Assembly: GCF_037076425.1 (NCBI RefSeq)
Contig: NZ_AP028127.1
Span: forward strand, 526,001-590,000
Direction of reading: 5' to 3'
From: Turicibacter faecis
GTDB taxonomy: Bacteria; Bacillota_I; Bacilli_A; MOL361; Turicibacteraceae
Length of the DNA: 64,000 bases
A program made the translations under genes and the position numbers. Positions 7,644 through 52,096 of this stretch are shown here, in pieces. The notes beneath the pieces were generated by a model. That model had not been told where the DNA came from. It made no database searches and was given only the letters and a program-made list of their open reading frames with translations. How positions within the stretch are numbered: the first letter of the stretch is position 1; each line of letters opens with the position of its first letter.

Positions 7644-7801
7644 ATTAGAGACTTTAGTCTGTTGAACACGCAAAGCGTGTGAAACATAAAACCACCCGCT
7701 ATGCGGGTGGCGAATAAAAGTTTATAACTCCATTAAAAAATCACCTTTTTTCCTATAATAGAGTTGTTCAAGCTACTATTTTAGAAGAGAAGGTGATTTT
7801 T

Positions 7802-8257
7802 ATGGCGAATCAAACAAATAGTTTATCGCACACAAAATGGATGTGCAAATACCATATTGTGTTTACTCCTAAGTATAGACGAAAAATAATATATAATCAA
7901 TATAAAACAAGTATAAGAGATATTTTAAAACAACTTTGTGCCTATAAAGGAGTTGAAATTATTGAAGGGCATTTAATGCCAGATCATGTACATATGTTAG
8001 TAAGTATTCCACCTAAAATGAGTGTATCTAGTTTTATGGGATATTTGAAAGGAAAGAGTGCATTGATGATGTTTGATAAACATGCAAATTTGAAATACAA
8101 ATTTGGAAATCGGCATTTTTGGGCAGAAGGATATTATGTCAGTACGGTTGGCCTAAATGAGGCAACGATAAGGAAATATATTCAGGATCAGGAAAAGCAT
8201 GATATTGCGATGGATAAATTAAGTGTAAAAGAATATGAAGACCCCTTTAAGGGGTAG
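7802..8257 (+). CDS. tnpA: IS200/IS605 family transposase TnpA (Y1 HUH type)
   Basis: A 151-residue single-strand DNA transposase. The HUH metal-binding motif is the H62-V63-H64 of PDHVHMLVSIP, and the likely catalytic tyrosine is Y126 in ATIRKYIQDQ. Length matches the family, about 130-155 residues. ATG 7802 follows AGAAGGTGA at a good distance; an in-frame GTG at 7793 lies inside that SD. The last codons, including the stop, overlap a hairpin at 8241-8255 that begins the structured 3' region of the element. It appears intact and potentially active. Confidence 0.92.
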   Translation: MANQTNSLSHTKWMCKYHIVFTPKYRRKIIYNQYKTSIRDILKQLCAYKGVEIIEGHLMPDHVHMLVSIPPKMSVSSFMGYLKGKSALMMFDKHANLKYKFGNRHFWAEGYYVSTVGLNEATIRKYIQDQEKHDIAMDKLSVKEYEDPFKG

Positions 8258-8404: not shown

Positions 8405-8908
8405 TTATCCGTTGAAATAAATAAGGTTATTAATGATTTTGGGAGGTAAAGATTTAGACTAAAATAAAATTTTACTAAATTAAATAGAAAGTCATGGTGA
8501 GGTAAGCAGCCTTTGTCTTCCTTCTATCGTTATAATAAAAGGTCCCTTGAGGGCATTTCTTTCAATAAGAAGGGTGTACCGTAGTATCAAAAGTATTCTT
8601 TGATGATATAGACCCTTTTTTACTGTTTTATTTATAGCAAGTTATATATTAGCCATATGGATAGAATCTTCTATCTGAATAGGGAGAGGAGTATTAGCAG
8701 AAAGTAAGGTACTTAATGTTTTTCTCTTTTTCCGACATTTTAAAGAGAAATGAGGAGAAGTGTGTCAAAAAGCGATGATTTTAAAGGTGTAAACGATTAA
8801 CTTTTCCTTTATTTGAATAGTTTCGTCATAAGTTGAATGTTCAAAATGAAAGGATGATGTTAAAATGTTGTTATATGTTAAAGATTGTTTAATGGGGGGG
8901 AAGTTCCG
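8405..8908. other. Intergenic region before the IF2_N/GT5-N gene
   Basis: No gene is visible in about 500 bp. One copy of the galactose-type box TTTACTAAA lies at 8471-8479. A purine-rich SD, seven G followed by AAG, precedes the next start. I could not place a convincing promoter. Confidence 0.45.
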
Positions 8909-10069
8909 GTGAGAGTATACGAATTTGCTAGAAATTATGAAATGACAAGCAAGGAGCTTGTAGGGATTTGTCAGGAGTTAGGAATTAGTGTTAAAGCACA
9001 ATCAAAGTTAGATGAAAAACAATTATCAGCATTAAGCCAACATTTTAACCGTGAAGAAGGGCATGCTAAACCGATGGAGAATGTAAGTGAAGTGGAAGCG
9101 TGTTTAGTAGAAATGGATACAAACGATGAAGTGGAAGCGTGTTTAGTAGAGATGGATACGAATGATGAAGTAGAAGCGTGTTTGATTGAGATGGACACGA
9201 ACGATGAAGTAGAAGAGTGTTTGCTTGAGACGGATGCGAACGATGAAGTAGAAGAGTGTTTGCTTGAGACGGATGCGAACGACGGGATGGAAGAGGTAGT
9301 GATCGCAGATCAACCAGAGGAAGGAATCATTGGACGTAAAATGGCGTATATCGTGACGGAATGTGAGCCGTTTACTTCGCTTGGGGAACTTGGAAAAATT
9401 TCAGCTGAGTTTGCGAAAAAGAGGGTTAGCGAGGGCCACTCATTAGTGGTTGCATTACCTAAATATCGATCAATTACGGATGCCTATGGAAAAGAAATGG
9501 ATTGGCTAATGGACTTACCGGTTCGACTTGGAAATAAAACTGTTCGTGTTTCATTATTCAAATTAGTCATTGATTCGGTGACGTATTTATTTATTGGAAA
9601 TGATGGATATTTCCATCGTGACGATATCTATGGATATGACGATGACGTTGAACGATTTGCTTTCTTCAACCGTGCAGTGCTTGAAGCATTACCGTACTTA
9701 GGGGACGCCGTGGAAGAAATTCACTTAAATGATTGGCACACAAGTATGATTCCATTAATGTTAGAGGTAGATTACAAATCACGACCATTCTACCAAGGAG
9801 TTAAAACGATCTTAACGATCCATAATTTAGAATACCAGGGATGGTGTGAAGCTGAGATTTTACCATCGATTCTTGGAATTAGTCGTCAATATTATGAAAA
9901 TGGATTAACGCGTATGGGTGACGCGGTTAACCTATTAAAGAGTGGGATTGAAACGGCACATCAAATTCGATTACAAGGAATGAGCCAAAGCCAGCTAACA
10001 CTCCCACAAATTCAACAAAGTGGAATGGTGGCATTAATTGAGAATAAATTAAATCATCAAGTAGCCTAA
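8909..10069 (+). CDS. IF2_N domain fused to a degenerate glycogen synthase N-terminal (GT5) domain
   Basis: A 386-residue protein of unusual design. Residues 1-45 (RVYEFARNYEMTSKELVGIC) match the IF2_N domain found at the start of translation factor IF-2. Residues 61-125 are five tandem 13-residue acidic repeats. From residue 145 a GT5 glycogen/starch synthase N-domain is recognisable: YIVTECEPF, NDWHTS with the conserved histidine (H277), and TILTIHNLEYQG. The ADP-glucose-binding K-x-G-G motif is replaced by SLGELGK, and the C-terminal GT-B half with the catalytic glutamate is absent. It should therefore not be an active synthase. GTG 8909 is chosen because GGGGGAAG precedes it and IF2_N domains begin there; TTG 8885 is the alternative. 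A regulatory or scaffold role is inference. Confidence 0.7.
   Translation: MRVYEFARNYEMTSKELVGICQELGISVKAQSKLDEKQLSALSQHFNREEGHAKPMENVSEVEACLVEMDTNDEVEACLVEMDTNDEVEACLIEMDTNDEVEECLLETDANDEVEECLLETDANDGMEEVVIADQPEEGIIGRKMAYIVTECEPFTSLGELGKISAEFAKKRVSEGHSLVVALPKYRSITDAYGKEMDWLMDLPVRLGNKTVRVSLFKLVIDSVTYLFIGNDGYFHRDDIYGYDDDVERFAFFNRAVLEALPYLGDAVEEIHLNDWHTSMIPLMLEVDYKSRPFYQGVKTILTIHNLEYQGWCEAEILPSILGISRQYYENGLTRMGDAVNLLKSGIETAHQIRLQGMSQSQLTLPQIQQSGMVALIENKLNHQVA
9089..9283 (+). repeat. Five in-frame 39-bp tandem repeats (13 residues each)
   Basis: The unit encodes EVEACLVEMDTND, repeated five times with drift to EVEECLLETDAND in the last two copies. Each unit carries one cysteine and about five acidic residues. 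The first three copies are closely similar at DNA level, as are the last two, which points to two rounds of duplication by slippage or unequal exchange. Confidence 0.92.
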
Positions 10070-41523: not shown

Positions 41524-43539
41524 ATGTTTGAATTTGAATTAGCACAGGAAAATCGCAACTCATTTAAAAATGAAATTAAAAGTAGCTTAGTAAAAAAGGT
41601 GAAACCTTATTGCGAATTTACGGATATCGATCGCTACTTTTTTAGCGAGGGGACACATAAGCAACTTTATAAAAAGTTTGGGGCACATGTTGTTCGTGAC
41701 GAATCAGGAATTTTAGGAACATACTTTTGTGTTTATGCGCCTCATGCTAAACACGTGGCAGTTGTTGGTGATTTTAATCATTGGAATGGAGAATTGCATG
41801 GTATGATTGGAGAGAATGGAATCTGGTCACTTTACATTCCAAAATTGCAAGAGGGTCATTTATATAAATATGAAATTACAACATCATGGGGGGAAAAAAT
41901 CCTTAAAGCCGATCCTTACGCTTTTTATGCGGAAAATCGTCCAAATACGGCTTCAATGATTTATGATATTGAAGGATTTGAGTGGACAGATGAGAAGTGG
42001 GTTAACAAACGCCGACAATCTAATATTTTTGAACAACCGTTAAATATTTATGAATTACACCTAGGATCTTGGCGTCGTGGGGAAGAGCTAGTAGAGACAG
42101 AATCTTTTCATACTTATGCTGAAATCGCGGATGATTTAATTCAATATGTCTTAGATCATAGCTATACGCATATCGAATTAATGCCACTTTATGAACATCC
42201 ATTTGATGGGTCTTGGGGATACCAAGCAACAGGATATTACGCAGCGAGTAGCCGTTACGGGGAACCAAAGGATCTCATGATGTTTATTAATCGATGCCAC
42301 GAAGCAGGAATTGGTGTTATTATGGACTGGGTTCCAGGACATTTCTGCCGTGATGCACATGGTCTTTATAAATTTGATGGGGAAGCAGTTTACGAATATC
42401 CATTTGATGATGCGGCCGTTTCAGAATGGGGAACAGCTAACTTTGATTTAGCTAAAGGAGAAGTACGTAGTTTCTTAATTTCAAATGCTTTATTTTGGAT
42501 GAAGTACTACCATGTCGATGGATTCCGTGTTGATGCCGTGGCAAATATTATTTATTGGGGTGGAAATAAGGAGCGTGGTGAAAATCACGGTGCCATTGAA
42601 TTCTTAAAACGTATGAATACTGAAATCTTTGCCGAGGATGATAAAGTATTAATGATTGCTGAGGATTCAACAAGCTATCCATTAGTCACTGCACCAGTTT
42701 CTGTTGGCGGGTTAGGATTTAGTTACAAATGGAATATGGGATGGATGAACGATACATTAGACTATATTGAATTAGATAATATTTATCGTCCATATCATCA
42801 TAACTACATTACTTTTGCAATGGCATACGCCTATAGTGAAAACTTTGTCTTACCATTTTCGCATGATGAAGTTGTCCATGGGAAGAAATCATTAGTTGAT
42901 AAAGCTCCAGGAGATTACTGGCAAAAAATGGCCCAATATCGTTTGTTATGTACTTACCAAATGACATTACCAGGTAAGAAGTTGAACTTTATGGCCAATG
43001 AAATTGCTCAATTCCATGAGTGGAAAGATAAGGAGCAAGTGGACTGGCATTTATTAACATATCCGGCTCATGATGCGTCAAATCGATATATTAAAGATTT
43101 AAATAAAGTCTATTTAAATGATGCAGCGTTTTGGGAATTAGATCATTCATTTGAGGGATTTGAATGGATTGACGTTAATAATAATGAGCAAAGTATGTTC
43201 TCTTATATTCGCCGTGCGAAAGATTCTGAGGATTTTGTCGTAGTTGTGCTAAACTTCAAACCAGTTTCTTACCATAACTATCGTCTTGGTGTTCCAAAAG
43301 AAGGAGAATATGTAGAGGTTTTAAATAGTGATCGTAATTATTATCATGGATCAAATCAATATAATGGATTACCATTGGTTGCATCTGAGGGAATCTGTCA
43401 TGGAAAACCATACTTTATTGAAATGACAATTCCACCATATGGGGCAGTTATTTTAAAGTATCGTGCTAAAAAGATGGAAGAGGTTGTTTTAGAGGAAGAA
43501 GAATTAATTGAGACAATGGAAGCAGAGATGGAAGTTTAA
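41524..43539 (+). CDS. glgB: 1,4-alpha-glucan branching enzyme
   Basis: A 671-residue GH13 enzyme that introduces alpha-1,6 branches into glycogen. An N-terminal CBM48 domain (YFCVYAPHAKHVAVVGDFNH) precedes the barrel. The catalytic residues are D337 in GFRVDAVANI, E380 in MIAEDSTSYP, and the transition-state aspartate in FSHDEVVHG. The C-terminal end is a glutamate-rich tail (VVLEEEELIETMEAEMEV), longer than usual. ATG 41524 follows AAGGGGGAAG. It is the first gene of glgB-C-(DA), with glgP following separately. Confidence 0.95.
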   Translation: MFEFELAQENRNSFKNEIKSSLVKKVKPYCEFTDIDRYFFSEGTHKQLYKKFGAHVVRDESGILGTYFCVYAPHAKHVAVVGDFNHWNGELHGMIGENGIWSLYIPKLQEGHLYKYEITTSWGEKILKADPYAFYAENRPNTASMIYDIEGFEWTDEKWVNKRRQSNIFEQPLNIYELHLGSWRRGEELVETESFHTYAEIADDLIQYVLDHSYTHIELMPLYEHPFDGSWGYQATGYYAASSRYGEPKDLMMFINRCHEAGIGVIMDWVPGHFCRDAHGLYKFDGEAVYEYPFDDAAVSEWGTANFDLAKGEVRSFLISNALFWMKYYHVDGFRVDAVANIIYWGGNKERGENHGAIEFLKRMNTEIFAEDDKVLMIAEDSTSYPLVTAPVSVGGLGFSYKWNMGWMNDTLDYIELDNIYRPYHHNYITFAMAYAYSENFVLPFSHDEVVHGKKSLVDKAPGDYWQKMAQYRLLCTYQMTLPGKKLNFMANEIAQFHEWKDKEQVDWHLLTYPAHDASNRYIKDLNKVYLNDAAFWELDHSFEGFEWIDVNNNEQSMFSYIRRAKDSEDFVVVVLNFKPVSYHNYRLGVPKEGEYVEVLNSDRNYYHGSNQYNGLPLVASEGICHGKPYFIEMTIPPYGAVILKYRAKKMEEVVLEEEELIETMEAEMEV

Positions 43540-43584: not shown

Positions 43585-44757
43585 ATGGCAGTTAATAGTG
43601 TCGCTATGATATTAGCTGGGGGGAAAGGAACCCGATTAAAAGAGCTAACCATTCATCGTCCTAAGCCTGCCGTATCATTTGCAGGAAAGTATCGTCTAAT
43701 AGACTTTGTCCTAAGTAATTGTACAAATTCAGGAATTGATCAGGTTGGGGTATTAACACAATATGAACCGTTAGAATTAAATAGTTATATTGGAGAGGGG
43801 AGTTCATGGGATCTTGATGTCCATGGGGCATCTGTTACATTAATGGGTCCTTATACGTCTCGTGATTATGGGTTCTTATGGCAAGGGGGAACAGCGGAGG
43901 CTGTCATATTAAATATGCCGTTTATTGAGCAATATAACCCAGATTATTTATTAGTTTTATCGGCAGATCATATTTATAAAATGGATTATCGTAAGCTGAT
44001 TGACTATCATATTGAAAAGGGATCTCAATTGACAATTTCAACGATTCGTGTTCCCGAAGAAGAGACTAAAAGATTTGGAATGCTGAAGGTTAATCATGAA
44101 AATCGAGTGATAGAGTTTGAAGAAAAGCCTCAGAAAACAGAAAGTCGTTTAGCATCGATGGGGGTCTATGTTTTTAGTTGGAAGAAGTTTAAAGATGATA
44201 TTATTCATAAGTATCAAAGACATCTTTATGAGGGGGTCGACTTTGCTCAAGATGTTATTCCTTACTTTATCGAGACGAACTCAGCTGTGTTTGCTTATGA
44301 GTACAAAGGGTACTGGCGCGATGTTGGAACGGTTGAAGGTTATTGGAAAGCACACATGGATTTATTGGATTCCGATAATGATTTAAATCTTCATGATTAT
44401 AGTTGGCCTATTTTCTCAAAAACACCTAACCTCCCGCCACATCATATCTTAAAGGATGCGAAGGTCCGAAATGCTTGGATTAATGAGGGAAGCATGGTTT
44501 TCGGTGAAGTATATGATTCAATCATCGGTCATCGTTGCATTATTCAAGAGCGTTCCATTGTTGAAAAAAGTGTCATTTTAACAAGTGCTCAAATTGAACA
44601 TGATTGCCATATTAGTTATGCTGTTATCGGGGATGACGTTGTGATTCCGGCTCATACTGAGATTCATGGCGATGAAACGAATATTGTTTTGGTGACAAAT
44701 GATAATTTAGAAGAAATTCTTGAGCATCAGGGGAGGGGAGAAGATCATGAAAAATAA
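43585..44757 (+). CDS. glgC: Glucose-1-phosphate adenylyltransferase catalytic subunit
   Basis: A 390-residue enzyme that makes ADP-glucose from ATP and glucose-1-phosphate. Catalytic-subunit signatures are intact: AGGKGTRLKELT at the start, WQGGTAEAV, the sugar-binding LSADHIYKMDY, and EEKPQ. The C-terminal left-handed beta-helix follows. ATG 43585 follows AAGGGGAGGGG. It overlaps the next gene by 11 bp, which suggests tight coupling to its GlgD partner part. Confidence 0.95.
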   Translation: MAVNSVAMILAGGKGTRLKELTIHRPKPAVSFAGKYRLIDFVLSNCTNSGIDQVGVLTQYEPLELNSYIGEGSSWDLDVHGASVTLMGPYTSRDYGFLWQGGTAEAVILNMPFIEQYNPDYLLVLSADHIYKMDYRKLIDYHIEKGSQLTISTIRVPEEETKRFGMLKVNHENRVIEFEEKPQKTESRLASMGVYVFSWKKFKDDIIHKYQRHLYEGVDFAQDVIPYFIETNSAVFAYEYKGYWRDVGTVEGYWKAHMDLLDSDNDLNLHDYSWPIFSKTPNLPPHHILKDAKVRNAWINEGSMVFGEVYDSIIGHRCIIQERSIVEKSVILTSAQIEHDCHISYAVIGDDVVIPAHTEIHGDETNIVLVTNDNLEEILEHQGRGEDHEK

Positions 44758-47194
44758 GGCATTGTGTGTGATTGATGGAACGAATACTTCCCAATCGCTT
44801 CAAAACTTACTAAATCAGCGTTGTGTGGCTGCCCTACCTTTTGCAGGACGTTATCGTTTAGTCGATTTCGCCCTATCGAATGCCGTCCATTCTGGGATTA
44901 CAAATGTATCAATTTTTCCGGATGGGGACTATCACTCATTAAGTGACCACATCCGATCAGGAAAATTTTGGGGACTTGATCGTAAAGTCGATGGGCTATT
45001 CTTGCTTCCTCCTAAAAAAGAGGTAAGTGCCATTGCAAATACTCTCACTTTTGCTCGAATGAGGGAATATATTGAATATTTCCTTCGTTCCCGACAAAAA
45101 TATGTGGTTTTATACCATGCCAATATTATTACGACCATTCCATTTGAAGAATTGGTTCAGTCACATATCGATTCCAAATCAGATGTGACTCAGGTTCATT
45201 ATCGGAATAAACCGGTTAATATTTTTGTTTTATCACGTGAATATTTAATTGATTTAATTTTAAAATATGAAATTTCCCCTTATCAAACGGTTCTTGATTT
45301 AGTTGAAATGAATGACGGGATTAAAATTAATCGTTATGAGCATCGTATTTACACGCGGACCATTGATTCTATTTTGTCGTACTATCGAGCAAATCTTGAT
45401 ATGCTACACTATGAGTATGGGTTTCAAATTTTCTTGCTTGAGCGTCCCGTTCTTACGAAGACAAAAGATGAATCACCGACGTTTTATACGAAACAGGCCG
45501 ATGTCACCAATTCAATGATTGCAAATGGGTGTCGAATTGAAGGTAAGGTTGAAAACTGTGTGCTATTTCGGGATGTAACGATTAAACGAGGGGCCATTGT
45601 TAGAAACTCGGTTATTTTACCTCGAACGGTTATTGGGGAAAATAGTATTATTGAACAGGTCATTACGGATAAGCACGTTTATATTAGTGACGGGGCTCGC
45701 CTGAGTGGTCAAGAGTATACCCCTATTGTTATTGGAAAGGGACAGCGAGTGATTGGTAATAAAGGAATTAGCGTCGCTCAAATCTCAACTGAATGTGTAC
45801 CATTCTATAAAACGGGGGGACTCGCTGATGTAACGTTTGAACTCACACAGGAACTTATTAATCAGGGGTTAAATGTAGATGTTATTTTACCACTTTTTAA
45901 CTCATTGTCTGATCGATACCAGGAAAATTTAAGTCATGAATTAAGATCGGTTGCTGTGATAGGGAAATTGGATGTTCCTTATGATGTTTATCGTTATACG
46001 AAAGATGGAATTAATTATTATTTCATTTCATGTGGGGAGTTAACACGTGAAAAATTATATGGTTATCGTGATGATTGTCAACGTTATGAATTATACTGTT
46101 ATCTCGCTTTAGATTTTATTGAAAAAAGCGGACATAAATACGATATTATTCATTCTCATGACTGGTTAACGGGTCTAGTTCCATATTTCATGAAAAATGT
46201 ATTCGCAAAAAGAAGCAATCACTTTATGTTTACAAAAACAGTGTTTACGATTCATAATATTCATTATCAAGGAATATGCGATGTATCGGATTTAGCCATT
46301 ATTTCGCAATTTGATTCGATACCAAATGAAGTGATGCTATTTGAAAAAGTCAACTTTATGAAAACGGCTATTGTAACAAGTGATGAGGTGACAACCGTTT
46401 CTGAAACTTATTGTAATGAAATTTGTTATCCATATTTTGCGGAGGGGCTTGATCGCTTTATTGTCGCACGAAAAGATCATTTACATGGTATTTTAAATGG
46501 GATTAATTATAATTATAATAATCCGGCAACGGATTTGAGTATTTATAAACGATATACACCGAAGACCGTTGAAAATAAGAAAGAGAATAAATGTCAAATG
46601 CAACGTGAATTAGGACTTCCAGTGAATCCAAATGTGCCGGTCATTGGAATGGTTTCGCGTTTAGTTGAACAAAAGGGGTTTGATCTTATTTTAAAGGTCT
46701 TTGAAGAACTCATGAATGAAAATGTTCAATTCGTTTTATTAGGCGATGGGGATTACAAATATACGAGTTTCTTTAAGGCAATGGCCCAAAAGTACCCGAA
46801 TAAGGTTTCTGTAAATATCGGATTTTACTCATATAATTCTCAAATGATCTATGCAGGAAGTGACCTTTTCTTAATGCCTTCACGTTTTGAACCGTGTGGG
46901 ATTAGCCAAATGATAGCATTAAAATATGGAACGATCCCGGTTGTAAGGGAAACAGGGGGATTAAAGGATACTATTATTCCATATAATGAATTTATTCAAC
47001 ATGGAAATGGATTCGGTTTTGCTCACTATAACGCGCATGATATGTTGTTTACATTAAAGCGTGCGATTAATTTTTATCATATGCCTGAACATTGGGATAA
47101 ATTAGTTCAGAGTGCCATGAGTCAAGATTTAAGTTGGAAAAATTCAACGGAAAAATATATTAATCTTTATAGAAATTTAATTAATGAAGAGTAG
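44747..47194 (+). CDS. glgDA: Fused GlgD (ADP-glucose pyrophosphorylase regulatory subunit) and GlgA (glycogen synthase)
   Basis: An 815-residue protein joining two enzymes that are normally separate. Residues 1 to about 340 are GlgD: a nucleotidyltransferase fold without the catalytic signature (VIDGTNTSQSL replaces AGGKGTRL), the FAGRYRLVDFALSN motif, and the beta-helix repeats. The joint has almost no linker (IGKGQRVIGNKG), and then GlgA begins: STECVPFYKTGGLADV with the ADP-glucose lysine near 355, HSHDWLTG, IHNIHYQG, and the C-terminal catalytic RFEPCGISQMIALKYG near 714. All key GT5 residues are present, so the synthase should be active. ATG 44747 overlaps glgC and follows GGGGAGGGGAG. 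Confidence 0.93.
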   Translation: MKNKALCVIDGTNTSQSLQNLLNQRCVAALPFAGRYRLVDFALSNAVHSGITNVSIFPDGDYHSLSDHIRSGKFWGLDRKVDGLFLLPPKKEVSAIANTLTFARMREYIEYFLRSRQKYVVLYHANIITTIPFEELVQSHIDSKSDVTQVHYRNKPVNIFVLSREYLIDLILKYEISPYQTVLDLVEMNDGIKINRYEHRIYTRTIDSILSYYRANLDMLHYEYGFQIFLLERPVLTKTKDESPTFYTKQADVTNSMIANGCRIEGKVENCVLFRDVTIKRGAIVRNSVILPRTVIGENSIIEQVITDKHVYISDGARLSGQEYTPIVIGKGQRVIGNKGISVAQISTECVPFYKTGGLADVTFELTQELINQGLNVDVILPLFNSLSDRYQENLSHELRSVAVIGKLDVPYDVYRYTKDGINYYFISCGELTREKLYGYRDDCQRYELYCYLALDFIEKSGHKYDIIHSHDWLTGLVPYFMKNVFAKRSNHFMFTKTVFTIHNIHYQGICDVSDLAIISQFDSIPNEVMLFEKVNFMKTAIVTSDEVTTVSETYCNEICYPYFAEGLDRFIVARKDHLHGILNGINYNYNNPATDLSIYKRYTPKTVENKKENKCQMQRELGLPVNPNVPVIGMVSRLVEQKGFDLILKVFEELMNENVQFVLLGDGDYKYTSFFKAMAQKYPNKVSVNIGFYSYNSQMIYAGSDLFLMPSRFEPCGISQMIALKYGTIPVVRETGGLKDTIIPYNEFIQHGNGFGFAHYNAHDMLFTLKRAINFYHMPEHWDKLVQSAMSQDLSWKNSTEKYINLYRNLINEE

Positions 47195-47219: not shown

Positions 47220-47510
47220 TGAGGTGATTCCATCACCTTTAATAGGGATCAGGTTTATGAAGATAAGAGCGTTATTTTTTTGATGGCACCATGATATTGA
47301 AAGAGAGAGGTATTTCTGTAATATTTTGGTTCTGGCGAAATAAACGAGATGAAATTTGCAGAAATATAGCATTTTTTAGCTTTAAAAGGAACGCGTTACA
47401 TCTGAAACAGAGCTTTCATCTTTTAAATTATCTGATATAATAAGATTATGAAATGGAAAGATATGTAACATCGGAGGGGTGTTGCATACATGGAAGGGAG
47501 ATTTATTCTC

Positions 47511-49940
47511 ATGGCTAATGTATTTGCGAATAAAGACGTATTTAAGGATACGTTTCAGACGCGAGTGGAACAAATTTACGGCGTTAAATTTGAAGAAAGT
47601 ACACCGCACCAAAGATATTTCACACTAGGGACACTTGTTCGTGAGTATATCTCATCAAATTGGATTGAGACAAACGAGGCGATTGTTGAGGGGAAGCATA
47701 AACAAGTCTACTATTTCTCAATGGAGTTTTTGATGGGACGTTTATTAACAAATAACATCATGAACTTGGGAATCCGTCCGGTTATTGAAGAAGCAATGAA
47801 TGAGTTAGCAATTGACTTAAATGAATTAGAGCGCATTGAGGCAGATGCGGGTCTTGGTAATGGGGGATTAGGTCGTCTAGCAGCATGTTTTATGGACTCT
47901 ATTGCATCTTTAGGATTACCAGGGCACGGTAATGGATTACGTTATCGTTATGGATTCTTTGAGCAAAAGATTATCGATGGTTATCAAGTAGAAATTCCAG
48001 ATAAATGGTTACAACGTGGTTACGTATGGGAAGTTCGTAAGTCAAATGAATCGGTTGAAATTCCGTTCTACGGACACGTTCAAATAGAGAATGTTGATGG
48101 GAAAGAAGTCTATAAACATGTACCAGCTGAGTATGTAAGAGCTGTGCCTTATGATGTACCTGTTGTAGGGGACGTAGCGAATAATAATAAAACGGTTAAT
48201 ACATTACGTTTATGGTCATCGGAACCGACAGAAAATAAGTATCCTGATCATATTTCAGCTGTTGAATATGAAAAAGATGTACGTAATATTTCAGAATTCT
48301 TATATCCAGATGATTCAACAATAGAAGGAAAAATCTTACGTTTAAAACAACAATACTTCTTTGTAGCAGCCGGTGTAAGATGGGCTGTACGTCAACATAA
48401 AGAAGTTTACGGAACATTGAATAATTTCCATGAAAAAAATGTGTTACATATTAACGATACGCATCCAGCCTTAATCGTTCCAGAATTAATGCGTATTTTA
48501 ATTGATGAAGAGGGGTACGGTTGGGATCAAGCTTGGGAAATTACTCAACATTCATGTGCTTACACGAACCATACAATTTTAGCGGAAGCACTTGAAAAAT
48601 GGCCGGTTGATTTATTCCAACCATTATTACCACGTATTTATATGATTACGGAGGAAATTAACCGTCGTTACTGTTTAAAATTATTAGAGTTATATCCAAA
48701 TCAACCAGAGAAAGTAGCTGAATTAGCTATTATTGGATATAATCAAGTGCGTATGGCTCATTTAGCAATTGTCGGGTCATTTAGCATTAATGGGGTTGCA
48801 CAGTTACATACAGATATCTTAACTCATATTGAGATGAAAGATTTCTATCAAATGTATCCGGATCGTTTTAATAATAAAACAAACGGAATCACGCATCGTC
48901 GTTGGTTATTACATTGTAATCCAGAATTAACAAAGTTATTAGATAAAGAAATCGGAACAGGGTATCATACGAATACGTTTGAATTAGCGAAATTAGAGGA
49001 TAAATTACATGATGAGCGAGTTCAAAAAGAAATTATGAATATGAAATATGCTCGTAAACAAGCGTTAGCAAATCGTATTGAACGTGAGCAAGGTGTGAAG
49101 TTAGATCCAAACTCGATTTTTGATATTCAAGTTAAGCGTCTTCATGCGTATAAACGCCAGTTGTTAAACGCAATGCATATTATGTATTTATACAATCGAT
49201 TAAAAGAGGATGAACAATTTAGAGCGAACTTCCATCCTCAATCATTCATCTTCGGAGCAAAGGCAGCATCAGGTTACTATTTTGCTAAGAAGGTTATTAA
49301 ACTTATTAACTCGATTGCTCAAAAAGTTAATAATGATCCAGAAACGTCTAACTTATTAAAAGTTGTTTTCGTAGAAAATTACAATGTCACGTATGCTGAG
49401 TTAATTATGCCAGCTGCTGATTTATCAGAACAAATTTCTACGGCATCAAAAGAGGCATCAGGAACAGGAAACATGAAGTTTATGATGAATGGGGCTATGA
49501 CCATTGGAACATTAGATGGAGCGAATGTTGAAATTCATGAGCTAGTTGGAGATGAAAATAGCTTTATCTTTGGATTAAATGCGGATGAAGTTAATGATTA
49601 CCAACAAAATGGTGGATATAACCCATGGAATCTTTACCATACAGATGTTCGTATTCGTCGTGTATTAGATCAATTAGTTAATGGATTCTTAACACCAGAT
49701 AAAGAAGAATTCCGCGATATCTTTAATGCCGTGACACATAATGGCGATGAGTATTTTGTCTTAAAAGACTTTGATGCTTATGTGCGTGCGCAGGAGGCTG
49801 CTAATCAAGCTTATAAAAATCGCAAGAAATGGACTGAAATGTCAATGATTAATATTGCACGTTCTGGTAAATTCTCATCAGACCGTACGATTCAAGAATA
49901 TGCAGACCAAATTTGGCATTTAGAAAAATTAAAATTTTAA
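47511..49940 (+). CDS. glgP: Glycogen/maltodextrin phosphorylase
   Basis: An 809-residue PLP-dependent GT35 phosphorylase that releases glucose-1-phosphate from glycogen. Signatures include EADAGLGNGGLGRLAACFMDS near residue 110, the TNHTILAEALEKWP segment, and the PLP-lysine motif EASGTGNMKFMMNGA. ATG 47511 is chosen because AGGGAG lies ten bases upstream and the peptide then starts as in relatives; ATG 47490 (12 bases after GGAGG) is the alternative. A likely promoter -10, TATAAT, lies near 47435. It is separate from the glgBCD-A unit but close by. Confidence 0.94.
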   Translation: MANVFANKDVFKDTFQTRVEQIYGVKFEESTPHQRYFTLGTLVREYISSNWIETNEAIVEGKHKQVYYFSMEFLMGRLLTNNIMNLGIRPVIEEAMNELAIDLNELERIEADAGLGNGGLGRLAACFMDSIASLGLPGHGNGLRYRYGFFEQKIIDGYQVEIPDKWLQRGYVWEVRKSNESVEIPFYGHVQIENVDGKEVYKHVPAEYVRAVPYDVPVVGDVANNNKTVNTLRLWSSEPTENKYPDHISAVEYEKDVRNISEFLYPDDSTIEGKILRLKQQYFFVAAGVRWAVRQHKEVYGTLNNFHEKNVLHINDTHPALIVPELMRILIDEEGYGWDQAWEITQHSCAYTNHTILAEALEKWPVDLFQPLLPRIYMITEEINRRYCLKLLELYPNQPEKVAELAIIGYNQVRMAHLAIVGSFSINGVAQLHTDILTHIEMKDFYQMYPDRFNNKTNGITHRRWLLHCNPELTKLLDKEIGTGYHTNTFELAKLEDKLHDERVQKEIMNMKYARKQALANRIEREQGVKLDPNSIFDIQVKRLHAYKRQLLNAMHIMYLYNRLKEDEQFRANFHPQSFIFGAKAASGYYFAKKVIKLINSIAQKVNNDPETSNLLKVVFVENYNVTYAELIMPAADLSEQISTASKEASGTGNMKFMMNGAMTIGTLDGANVEIHELVGDENSFIFGLNADEVNDYQQNGGYNPWNLYHTDVRIRRVLDQLVNGFLTPDKEEFRDIFNAVTHNGDEYFVLKDFDAYVRAQEAANQAYKNRKKWTEMSMINIARSGKFSSDRTIQEYADQIWHLEKLKF

Positions 49941-50765: not shown

Positions 50766-51176
50766 ATGAGCAAGAAGTTATTTACACCACAAGAGATTGA
50801 ACAACTCAAACAAAACGAATATGTTAAGTCAGTATCTGAAAAAGGGATTACTTATACGAAAGAATTTAAGGAGAACTTTATTATGATGAGCGAGAAAGGA
50901 AAGTTTCCGCGAGAGATATTCGAATACTATGGATTTAATGTTACGGTGCTTGGCATGCAGCGTGTGAATTCTGCAGCTAAACGTTGGAAACAAGCCTTTA
51001 AAACCCAGGGCCCATTAGGATTGGATGATAGTCGTACTAAGAATTCTGGAAGGTCCCTAAAACGAGAGTTAACGCTAGAAGAACAATTATTACGCACGCA
51101 GGCTGAATTAGAAGTTTTAAAGATTGAGAACGAATTATTAAAAAAGTTGAGACTCATGAGAAAAATGCTCGAATAG
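50766..51176 (+). CDS. IS3-family OrfA
   Basis: A 136-residue DNA-binding protein of the element. The N-terminal half holds a helix-turn-helix (YTKEFKENFIMMSEKGKFPR) and the C-terminus a leucine-zipper-type coiled coil (LEEQLLRTQAELEVLKIENE), as in IS150-group elements. ATG 50766 follows TTAGGAGGA. Near its end, A-AAA-AAG at 51140-51146 is a typical -1 slippery heptamer. The shifted frame stays open into orfB. Confidence 0.9.
   Translation: MSKKLFTPQEIEQLKQNEYVKSVSEKGITYTKEFKENFIMMSEKGKFPREIFEYYGFNVTVLGMQRVNSAAKRWKQAFKTQGPLGLDDSRTKNSGRSLKRELTLEEQLLRTQAELEVLKIENELLKKLRLMRKMLE
51140..51146 (+). promoter_or_regulatory. -1 programmed ribosomal frameshift site (A AAA AAG)
   Basis: In the orfA frame the heptamer is preceded by TTA and read as AAA AAG. 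After a -1 shift the frame continues VETHEKNARIVSKEVKFQ and joins orfB without a stop. This is the usual way IS3 elements make the OrfAB transposase. Confidence 0.8.
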
Positions 51177-51199
51177 TCTCTAAAGAAGTAAAGTTTCAA

Positions 51200-52096
51200 A
51201 TGATTCATCAAGTAGTGAATCAGACATCAACTAAATTTAAATCTTTAATTTCTCATTTATGCGATAGTCTTGGTGTTTCAAGATCAGGTTATTATCGTTA
51301 TTTTTCGTTATGTGCTGAAGAAGCTCGTTTAAAGCGATTAAAGGAGGAACAACATCGTTTAGAAGTTATTCAAAAGGCCATTTGTTTTAAGGGACGAAAA
51401 AACAAGGGAATTCGCCAAGTAGCGATGGTTCTTAAAGGGGAATTCAACATTATCTTTAACCTAAAATCTATTCATCGAATCATGAAAAAGTATGGACTAT
51501 TGAGTCAAGTTCGTCGAAGCAATCCCTATCGTAAACTCGCTAAAGCGACACAAGCACATCGTGTCTGTCCAAATCTTGTTAATCGTCAATTTAGGCCATT
51601 AGAACCTTATAAAGTTCTATTAACCGATATCACTTATTTAAAATATGGAAAGGGTCAGACTGCCTATCTCTCGACCATCTTAGATAGTGCAACAAATGAA
51701 GTTTTAGCTTTTCAATTAAGTGAGCATTTAAAGATAGATTTTGTTCTCCAAACACTGAACCAACTTCAAGAAAATCCGACTGTCCAATTAACGAAGGAAA
51801 CGATTATTCACTCCGATCAGGGCGTGCATTATACGAGTCCGCAATTTTCGAATCAATTAAAGGAATTAGGAATTCAACAATCAATGTCTAGGAAGGGGAA
51901 TTGTTGGGATAACGCTCCACAAGAATCATTTTTTGGGCATCTAAAAGATGAAGCAGATATAACCAATCAACTGACATTTGATGATTTACTCATTGAAATT
52001 GAAGAATATATAGATTATCATAACAACTTTAGATATCAATGGAATTTAAAAAAGCTGACTCCTGTAGGATACAGAAATCAGCTTCAAGTTGCTTAG
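51200..52096 (+). CDS. IS3-family OrfB (DDE integrase domain)
   Basis: A 298-residue transposase catalytic part. An HTH_21 domain (GVSRSGYYRYFS, KNKGIRQVAMVLKGE) precedes the rve-type core. The DDE residues are D in LLTDITYLKYG, D in IIHSDQGVHYTS, and E in NAPQESFFGHLKDE. The usual C-terminal end YHNNFRYQWNLKKLTPVGYR is present. It is normally made by frameshift from orfA; ATG 51200 may allow a separate OrfB. Confidence 0.92.
   Translation: MIHQVVNQTSTKFKSLISHLCDSLGVSRSGYYRYFSLCAEEARLKRLKEEQHRLEVIQKAICFKGRKNKGIRQVAMVLKGEFNIIFNLKSIHRIMKKYGLLSQVRRSNPYRKLAKATQAHRVCPNLVNRQFRPLEPYKVLLTDITYLKYGKGQTAYLSTILDSATNEVLAFQLSEHLKIDFVLQTLNQLQENPTVQLTKETIIHSDQGVHYTSPQFSNQLKELGIQQSMSRKGNCWDNAPQESFFGHLKDEADITNQLTFDDLLIEIEEYIDYHNNFRYQWNLKKLTPVGYRNQLQVA

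Follow-up and report, generated by a model that had tools for sequence, protein, structure and literature searches.

The window analysed here, a stretch of 64,000 nucleotides from Turicibacter faecis, carries a glg operon with the gene order glgB-glgC-[glgD-glgA]-glgP, in which each neighbour of the central frame exceeds at least one model cut-off (Table 1). The central frame, on the forward strand, was confirmed to encode a GlgD-type ADP-glucose pyrophosphorylase pseudo-subunit and a complete GT5 glycogen synthase as a single protein. A strong Shine-Dalgarno-like stretch, AGGGGAGGGGAGAAGATCATG, lies 5' of its ATG start, and the frame overlaps glgC, whose catalytic columns are intact in our alignment, by 11 nt. 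The single continuous GlgD plus GlgA frame of 815 residues that the preliminary description had proposed is borne out both by NCBIfam and Pfam matches and by its presence in all five genomes of the genus.

Table 1. The glg operon of the window and the parts of the fused gene
Feature	Position	Strand	Product or extent	Evidence or remark
glgB	41524..43539	+	glycogen branching enzyme, 671 aa	TIGR01515, 819.9 bits, cut-off 463.95
glgC	43585..44757	+	catalytic ADP-glucose pyrophosphorylase subunit, 390 aa	NF003670, 484.8 bits, cut-off 470
glgD-glgA fusion	44747..47194	+	ATG to TAG, 815 codons	no internal stop
GlgD half	44747..45754	+	residues 1-336	TIGR02092, PF24894, PF00483; deletion and residue counts
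Head deletion site	45191..45208	+	about residues 149-154; position of the FEEKP motif in GlgC	alignment
Joint	45752..45766	+	residues 336-340, IGNKG	constant length across fused homologues
GlgA half	45767..47191	+	residues 341-815, complete GT5 glycogen synthase	TIGR02095, PF08323, PF00534; alignment with E. coli GlgA
glgP	47490..49940	+	glycogen phosphorylase, 816 aa	TIGR02093, 1117.8 bits, cut-off 552.9

The first beta strand of the GT5 fold opens the synthase half, which matches the NCBIfam glgA model TIGR02095 over residues 342-811 with 506.3 bits, against a cut-off of 328.45. The cut-off of the GlgA equivalog NF001898 was missed (530.5 versus 603 bits), and the models therefore support the broader subfamily name only. 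Pfam places Glyco_transf_5 at residues 343-572 and Glycos_transf_1 at 627-783, and both GT-B halves are present. In the alignment, K355, D472, H503, R638, K643 and E715 correspond to K15, D137, H161, R300, K305 and E377 of E. coli GlgA, which we take to be its catalytic positions. The reference for this alignment was the solved structure 2qzs, matched at 269 bits, and the six residues are invariant among 6 close homologues. The earlier claim that all GT5 motifs of this half are intact thus stands, as does the claim that almost no linker separates the halves; the two are joined with no spacer.

The N-terminal part matches the NCBIfam glgD model TIGR02092 in two stretches, with 308.9 bits against a cut-off of 236.6, and is composed of a pseudo-nucleotidyltransferase head and a left-handed beta-helix (matched at about residues 248-318). 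As is usual for GlgD, the GGxGxRL loop (G-loop) and the conserved Asp positions are absent from the fused proteins. The alignment of this half comprised 34 fused, 68 GlgC and 16 unfused GlgD rows. The columns of the catalytic Asp, the EKP Lys and the WRDVGT Asp, presumably the catalytic residues of the pyrophosphorylase, are invariant in all 68 GlgC rows. At the two Asp columns the window has N and T, as read from the translation and the alignment, the column summary outside the Lys giving the four commonest letters only. The EKP lysine of GlgC binds glucose-1-phosphate. Its column holds lysine in 68/68 GlgC rows and is gapped in none of the 14 unfused GlgD rows from other families, whereas it is a gap in 34/34 fused rows. 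Relative to a normal GlgD, the head has lost about 36 residues by an internal deletion, a feature absent from the preliminary description. The two Asp columns lie 77-78 residues apart in all 34 fused rows and 78 apart in both rows of genus g3, a genus of the same family with unfused genes, compared with 111-116 in the 68 GlgC and 113-117 in the 14 other GlgD rows. The fused proteins thus fall outside the 113-117 residues that characterize a full-length GlgD head, and their GlgD half is a shortened variant rather than a standard GlgD. Given that the G-loop, the acidic positions and the EKP block are all missing, ADP-glucose synthesis by this half is not expected.

The fusion occurs in a single frame in all five genomes of the genus and in 6 of the 8 of the family, which constitute the entire order among the genomes examined, and the named relatives are two Turicibacter MAGs. 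In a sample of 395 genomes of the class, 233 matched at E <= 1e-70 and 57 carried the single-frame fusion, counted as listed rows with one frame, no stop and reach into both halves; three genomes (G214, G373 and G379) gave partial matches. The 57 belong to five families (f1, 6; f8, 3; f12, 25; f20, 4; f22, 19). No fusion was present among the matches listed for the other matching families, the fused rows scoring well above the weakest match listed, and a draw of 392 genomes from the phylum, of which those listed all belong to the same class and overlap the class sample, added no fused family. In many Bacilli, glgC, glgD and glgA remain separate. The fusion was thus found in related genomes, and a stop or frameshift between the halves, which would overturn the preliminary description, was looked for in the genus relatives and not found. 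That a sequencing or assembly error joined two separate genes has practically no chance of being true, and we rule it out: the identical frame recurs throughout the genus and in 57/395 genomes of the class, several of them single-contig assemblies. For the same reason, the fusion is neither chance nor artefact. Annotating such proteins with one function, either GlgD or GlgA, conceals half of each.

The fused gene is embedded in a stable neighbourhood. With the window included, glgC lies directly upstream in 33/33 loci whose upstream side is visible and glgP lies downstream in 33/33 loci whose downstream side is visible, the counts leaving out L078 and L067, respectively, at contig ends. In trees of chosen subsets, both GlgC (25 of 44 rows) and GlgP (22 of 39 rows) of the fused operons fall on one side of a branch, each supported at 100/99. 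The register of the joint is equally constant: counted from the PFxK anchor of GT5, position -31 is G and position -21 is K in 34/34 fused proteins. The fusion is retained in families f8, f12, f20 and f22, which differ to the extent of 35-44% identity. Together, the constant joint and this retention suggest that selection maintains the fusion. Within the genus, strong purifying selection acts on both halves. In four within-genus pairs, dN/dS was 0.010, 0.028, 0.031 and 0.061 for the GlgD half and 0.026, 0.035, 0.048 and 0.081 for the GlgA half, ratios that are rough because synonymous sites are near saturation; a fifth pair, with another genus, was saturated and gave no ratio.

The split form found in genus g3 offers a view of how the fused gene may have arisen. 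In both of its genomes (G006 and G007), the TAA that ends glgD is followed immediately, with a gap of 0, by the ATG of an in-frame glgA. Counted by eye and with the TAA omitted, g3 has as many residues between the beta-helix end and PFxK as the fused proteins, and the fused and split forms are therefore one stop codon apart. The unfused GlgD of g3 already has the head deletion. In the GlgA tree (71 rows), all 34 fused rows are on one side of a branch supported at 100/99, a pattern that fits a single origin of the fusion. The GlgD tree (50 rows) unites the fused rows with g3 at 95/96 and the fused rows alone at 90/78, which is not strong. Grouping g3 with its own family is allowed for GlgD (AU p 0.31); for GlgA, the f1 clade is borderline (p 0.0495) and a clade of the fused rows plus g3 is not rejected (p 0.397). 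Placing g3 with its own family is rejected for GlgC (AU p 0.0005) and GlgP (0.0008), both in the above subsets, and the GlgC tree puts g3 among the unfused families. A simple fission of the Turicibacter gene as the source of the g3 form is unsupported, as the GlgC and GlgP of g3 lie outside the g1/g2 group. Since GlgC and GlgP argue against such a fission, GlgD is permissive and GlgA is borderline, the head deletion likely preceded the fusion. The simplest reading of these trees would be one fusion after the deletion, plus an operon transfer somewhere in the family, and g3 may represent either the pre-fusion state or a mosaic. Its short unfused GlgD, which a single stop codon sets apart from the fused form, provides a natural control.

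The genome of the window has a second set, glgC2-glgA2, which is unfused, has no GlgD alongside and is located downstream of a pyruvate:ferredoxin oxidoreductase-like gene (L035 2707-5413; G000:C1, about 630.7-633.4 kb). Apparent frames of 894 and 886 in the second set of G001 and G002 had the look of a GlgC-GlgA fusion, a candidate rejected on finding that a stop separates the in-frame glgC2 and glgA2. Most fused genomes of f12 and f22 likewise have a second match at E <= 1e-70, a separate GlgA where inspected. Because the glgC2-glgA2 set has neither GlgD nor fusion, tethering is probably dispensable for glycogen synthesis as such.

According to the indexed text of a previous study, the GlgD of Firmicutes is inactive and modulatory, and GlgC/GlgD tetramers have altered kinetics (PMC9093745). 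Given that Firmicutes GlgD joins GlgC, and that the fused GlgD keeps its core and helix while shedding the sugar-phosphate block, we prefer the reading that the GlgD half has no catalytic activity and serves as a docking domain that places the glycogen synthase on GlgC, and consider its chances to be about even. With its head core and C-terminal beta-helix retained, the GlgD half would dock with the active GlgC, the product of the adjacent upstream gene, in the manner of the known GlgC/GlgD tetramers. Every docked copy would then bear a complete glycogen synthase held rigidly at its C-terminus, and ADP-glucose would be produced and consumed within one particle at a fixed stoichiometry. We infer the binding to GlgC, the co-localised catalysis and any channelling from sequence comparisons. 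A synthase held near ADP-glucose synthesis, as the preliminary description suggested, fits the invariable upstream glgC and the fixed joint length, as well as the purifying selection on the GlgD half and the loss of the EKP block with the body kept. An AlphaFold2 model computed from an alignment of 3 rows (the window, L033 and L034) had a pLDDT of 35.1 and a pTM of 0.29, too low for the model to be of use. More tentatively, a lineage of Bacilli may have made a GlgD stripped of its glucose-1-phosphate lobe into the linkerless anchor of a GlgC-(GlgD-GlgA) particle, which would coexist with untethered GlgC2-GlgA2. If this is true, tethered and free glycogen routes could be compared within one organism. 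The conserved fusion of GlgD to the next enzyme of the pathway is a simple system for studying the role of GlgD and a possible local transfer of ADP-glucose in bacteria.

Another possibility, which we regard as rather unlikely, is that the GlgD half has lost its binding to GlgC and instead regulates the attached synthase in cis, for example by sensing a metabolite in the former nucleotide-sugar cleft, while GlgC forms a homotetramer alone. The head deletion, which exceeds the ordinary decay of GlgD, would agree with such a role, as would the second GlgC of the genome, which has no adjacent GlgD, and the activity of the Firmicutes GlgC tetramer on its own reported in the indexed text of PMC9093745. 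A GlgD half released from GlgC would, however, leave unaccounted for the adjoining glgC in every visible locus and the single lineage formed by the GlgC proteins of the fused operons.

Less favoured, and in our estimate improbable, is the view that the fusion is a selectively minor loss of a stop codon between in-frame neighbours, which sets a 1:1 ratio and does little more. The single TAA between glgD and glgA of g3 makes such an event easy to picture, and short in-frame gaps were found in 12/15 unfused loci, a set picked partly via a read-through search; nevertheless, a neutral loss sits poorly with a joint whose length is constant in all 34 fused proteins and with a fusion kept across four families at the divergence noted above. 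Finally, proteolysis, or translation starting internally near the joint, could also yield free GlgA, in which case the fused form would not be the working enzyme. We consider this very improbable, although in the window codon 335 is a GTG preceded by AAGG, as it is in L044. Of the other four Turicibacter rows, three (L043, L045 and L046) lack this start, as does the large majority of the 34 fused rows, and an internal start codon at the joint was rejected for this lack of conservation.

The protein can be set beside known systems. The operon shares with the Firmicutes GlgC/GlgD system (glgBCDAP) its gene order and a catalytic glgC beside a dead GlgD, and the GlgD model cut-off is passed; it differs in that GlgD is here the N-terminal half of a synthase, with a head about 36 residues shorter than that of free GlgD. 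Like the free GT5 GlgA enzymes (2qzs, 3d1j and 1rzu), the fused synthase is, by sequence, full-length in both its GT5 part and its GT1 part and has the six active-site residues, but it has no start of its own, and its N-terminal strand directly follows the GlgD beta-helix. A natural glg fusion involving GlgA also exists in the chlamydial Waddliaceae and Criblamydiaceae, where GlgA-GlgB is termed exceptional in the indexed text of its description (PMC7935935). According to the same text, glgC and glgP are lost there, the branching half is inactive and the pathway is decaying (PMC7935935), whereas the Turicibacter operon is whole, with glgB and glgC separate and intact upstream and both halves of the fusion constrained. 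TreS-Mak of the GlgE pathway is likewise a single chain that covers two steps of alpha-glucan metabolism; both of its halves are described as active enzymes in the indexed text of PMC11046441, whereas one half of the glgD-glgA product is a pseudo-enzyme. As indexed, this 2024 Chem Rev review describes TreS-Mak, GlgB-MalQ and GlgA-GlgB fusions and none with GlgD, a term counted zero times in the search index (PMC11046441). Within the open-access literature as represented by titles and the beginnings of abstracts, no description of a GlgD-GlgA fusion was found.

Other glycogen-synthase-like frames were noted in the sampled genomes. The second GlgA copies of six genomes of family f13 (L124-L129) have long, low-complexity N-terminal tails rich in K, E and A, partly in near repeats, and these extensions are not GlgD. 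A frame of 718 residues in L130, considered as an extended GlgA, is merely upstream read-in. In the window, a two-frame insertion element, by its appearance presumably of IS3 type, is located downstream of glgP at 50766-52096 (+), and a transposase-like frame of 154 residues, which we take from its appearance to be of IS200 type, is located at 7793-8257 (+), downstream of a sugar transporter-like gene. Elsewhere in the window, at 8885-10069 (+), a protein of 394 residues combines an IF2_N domain, scored at 37.3 bits by Pfam, with near-identical acidic repeats of the NDEVEACL type and, after the repeats, the N-terminal part of GT5 only (165.5 bits), with no GT1 half and with the KTGGL motif replaced by TSLGELG. 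This architecture recalls plant SSV, the Arabidopsis form of which is described as being without a GT1 domain in the indexed text of PMC4919380. Short frames matching the N-terminal part of GT5 are also present in G001, G002, G004 and G005.
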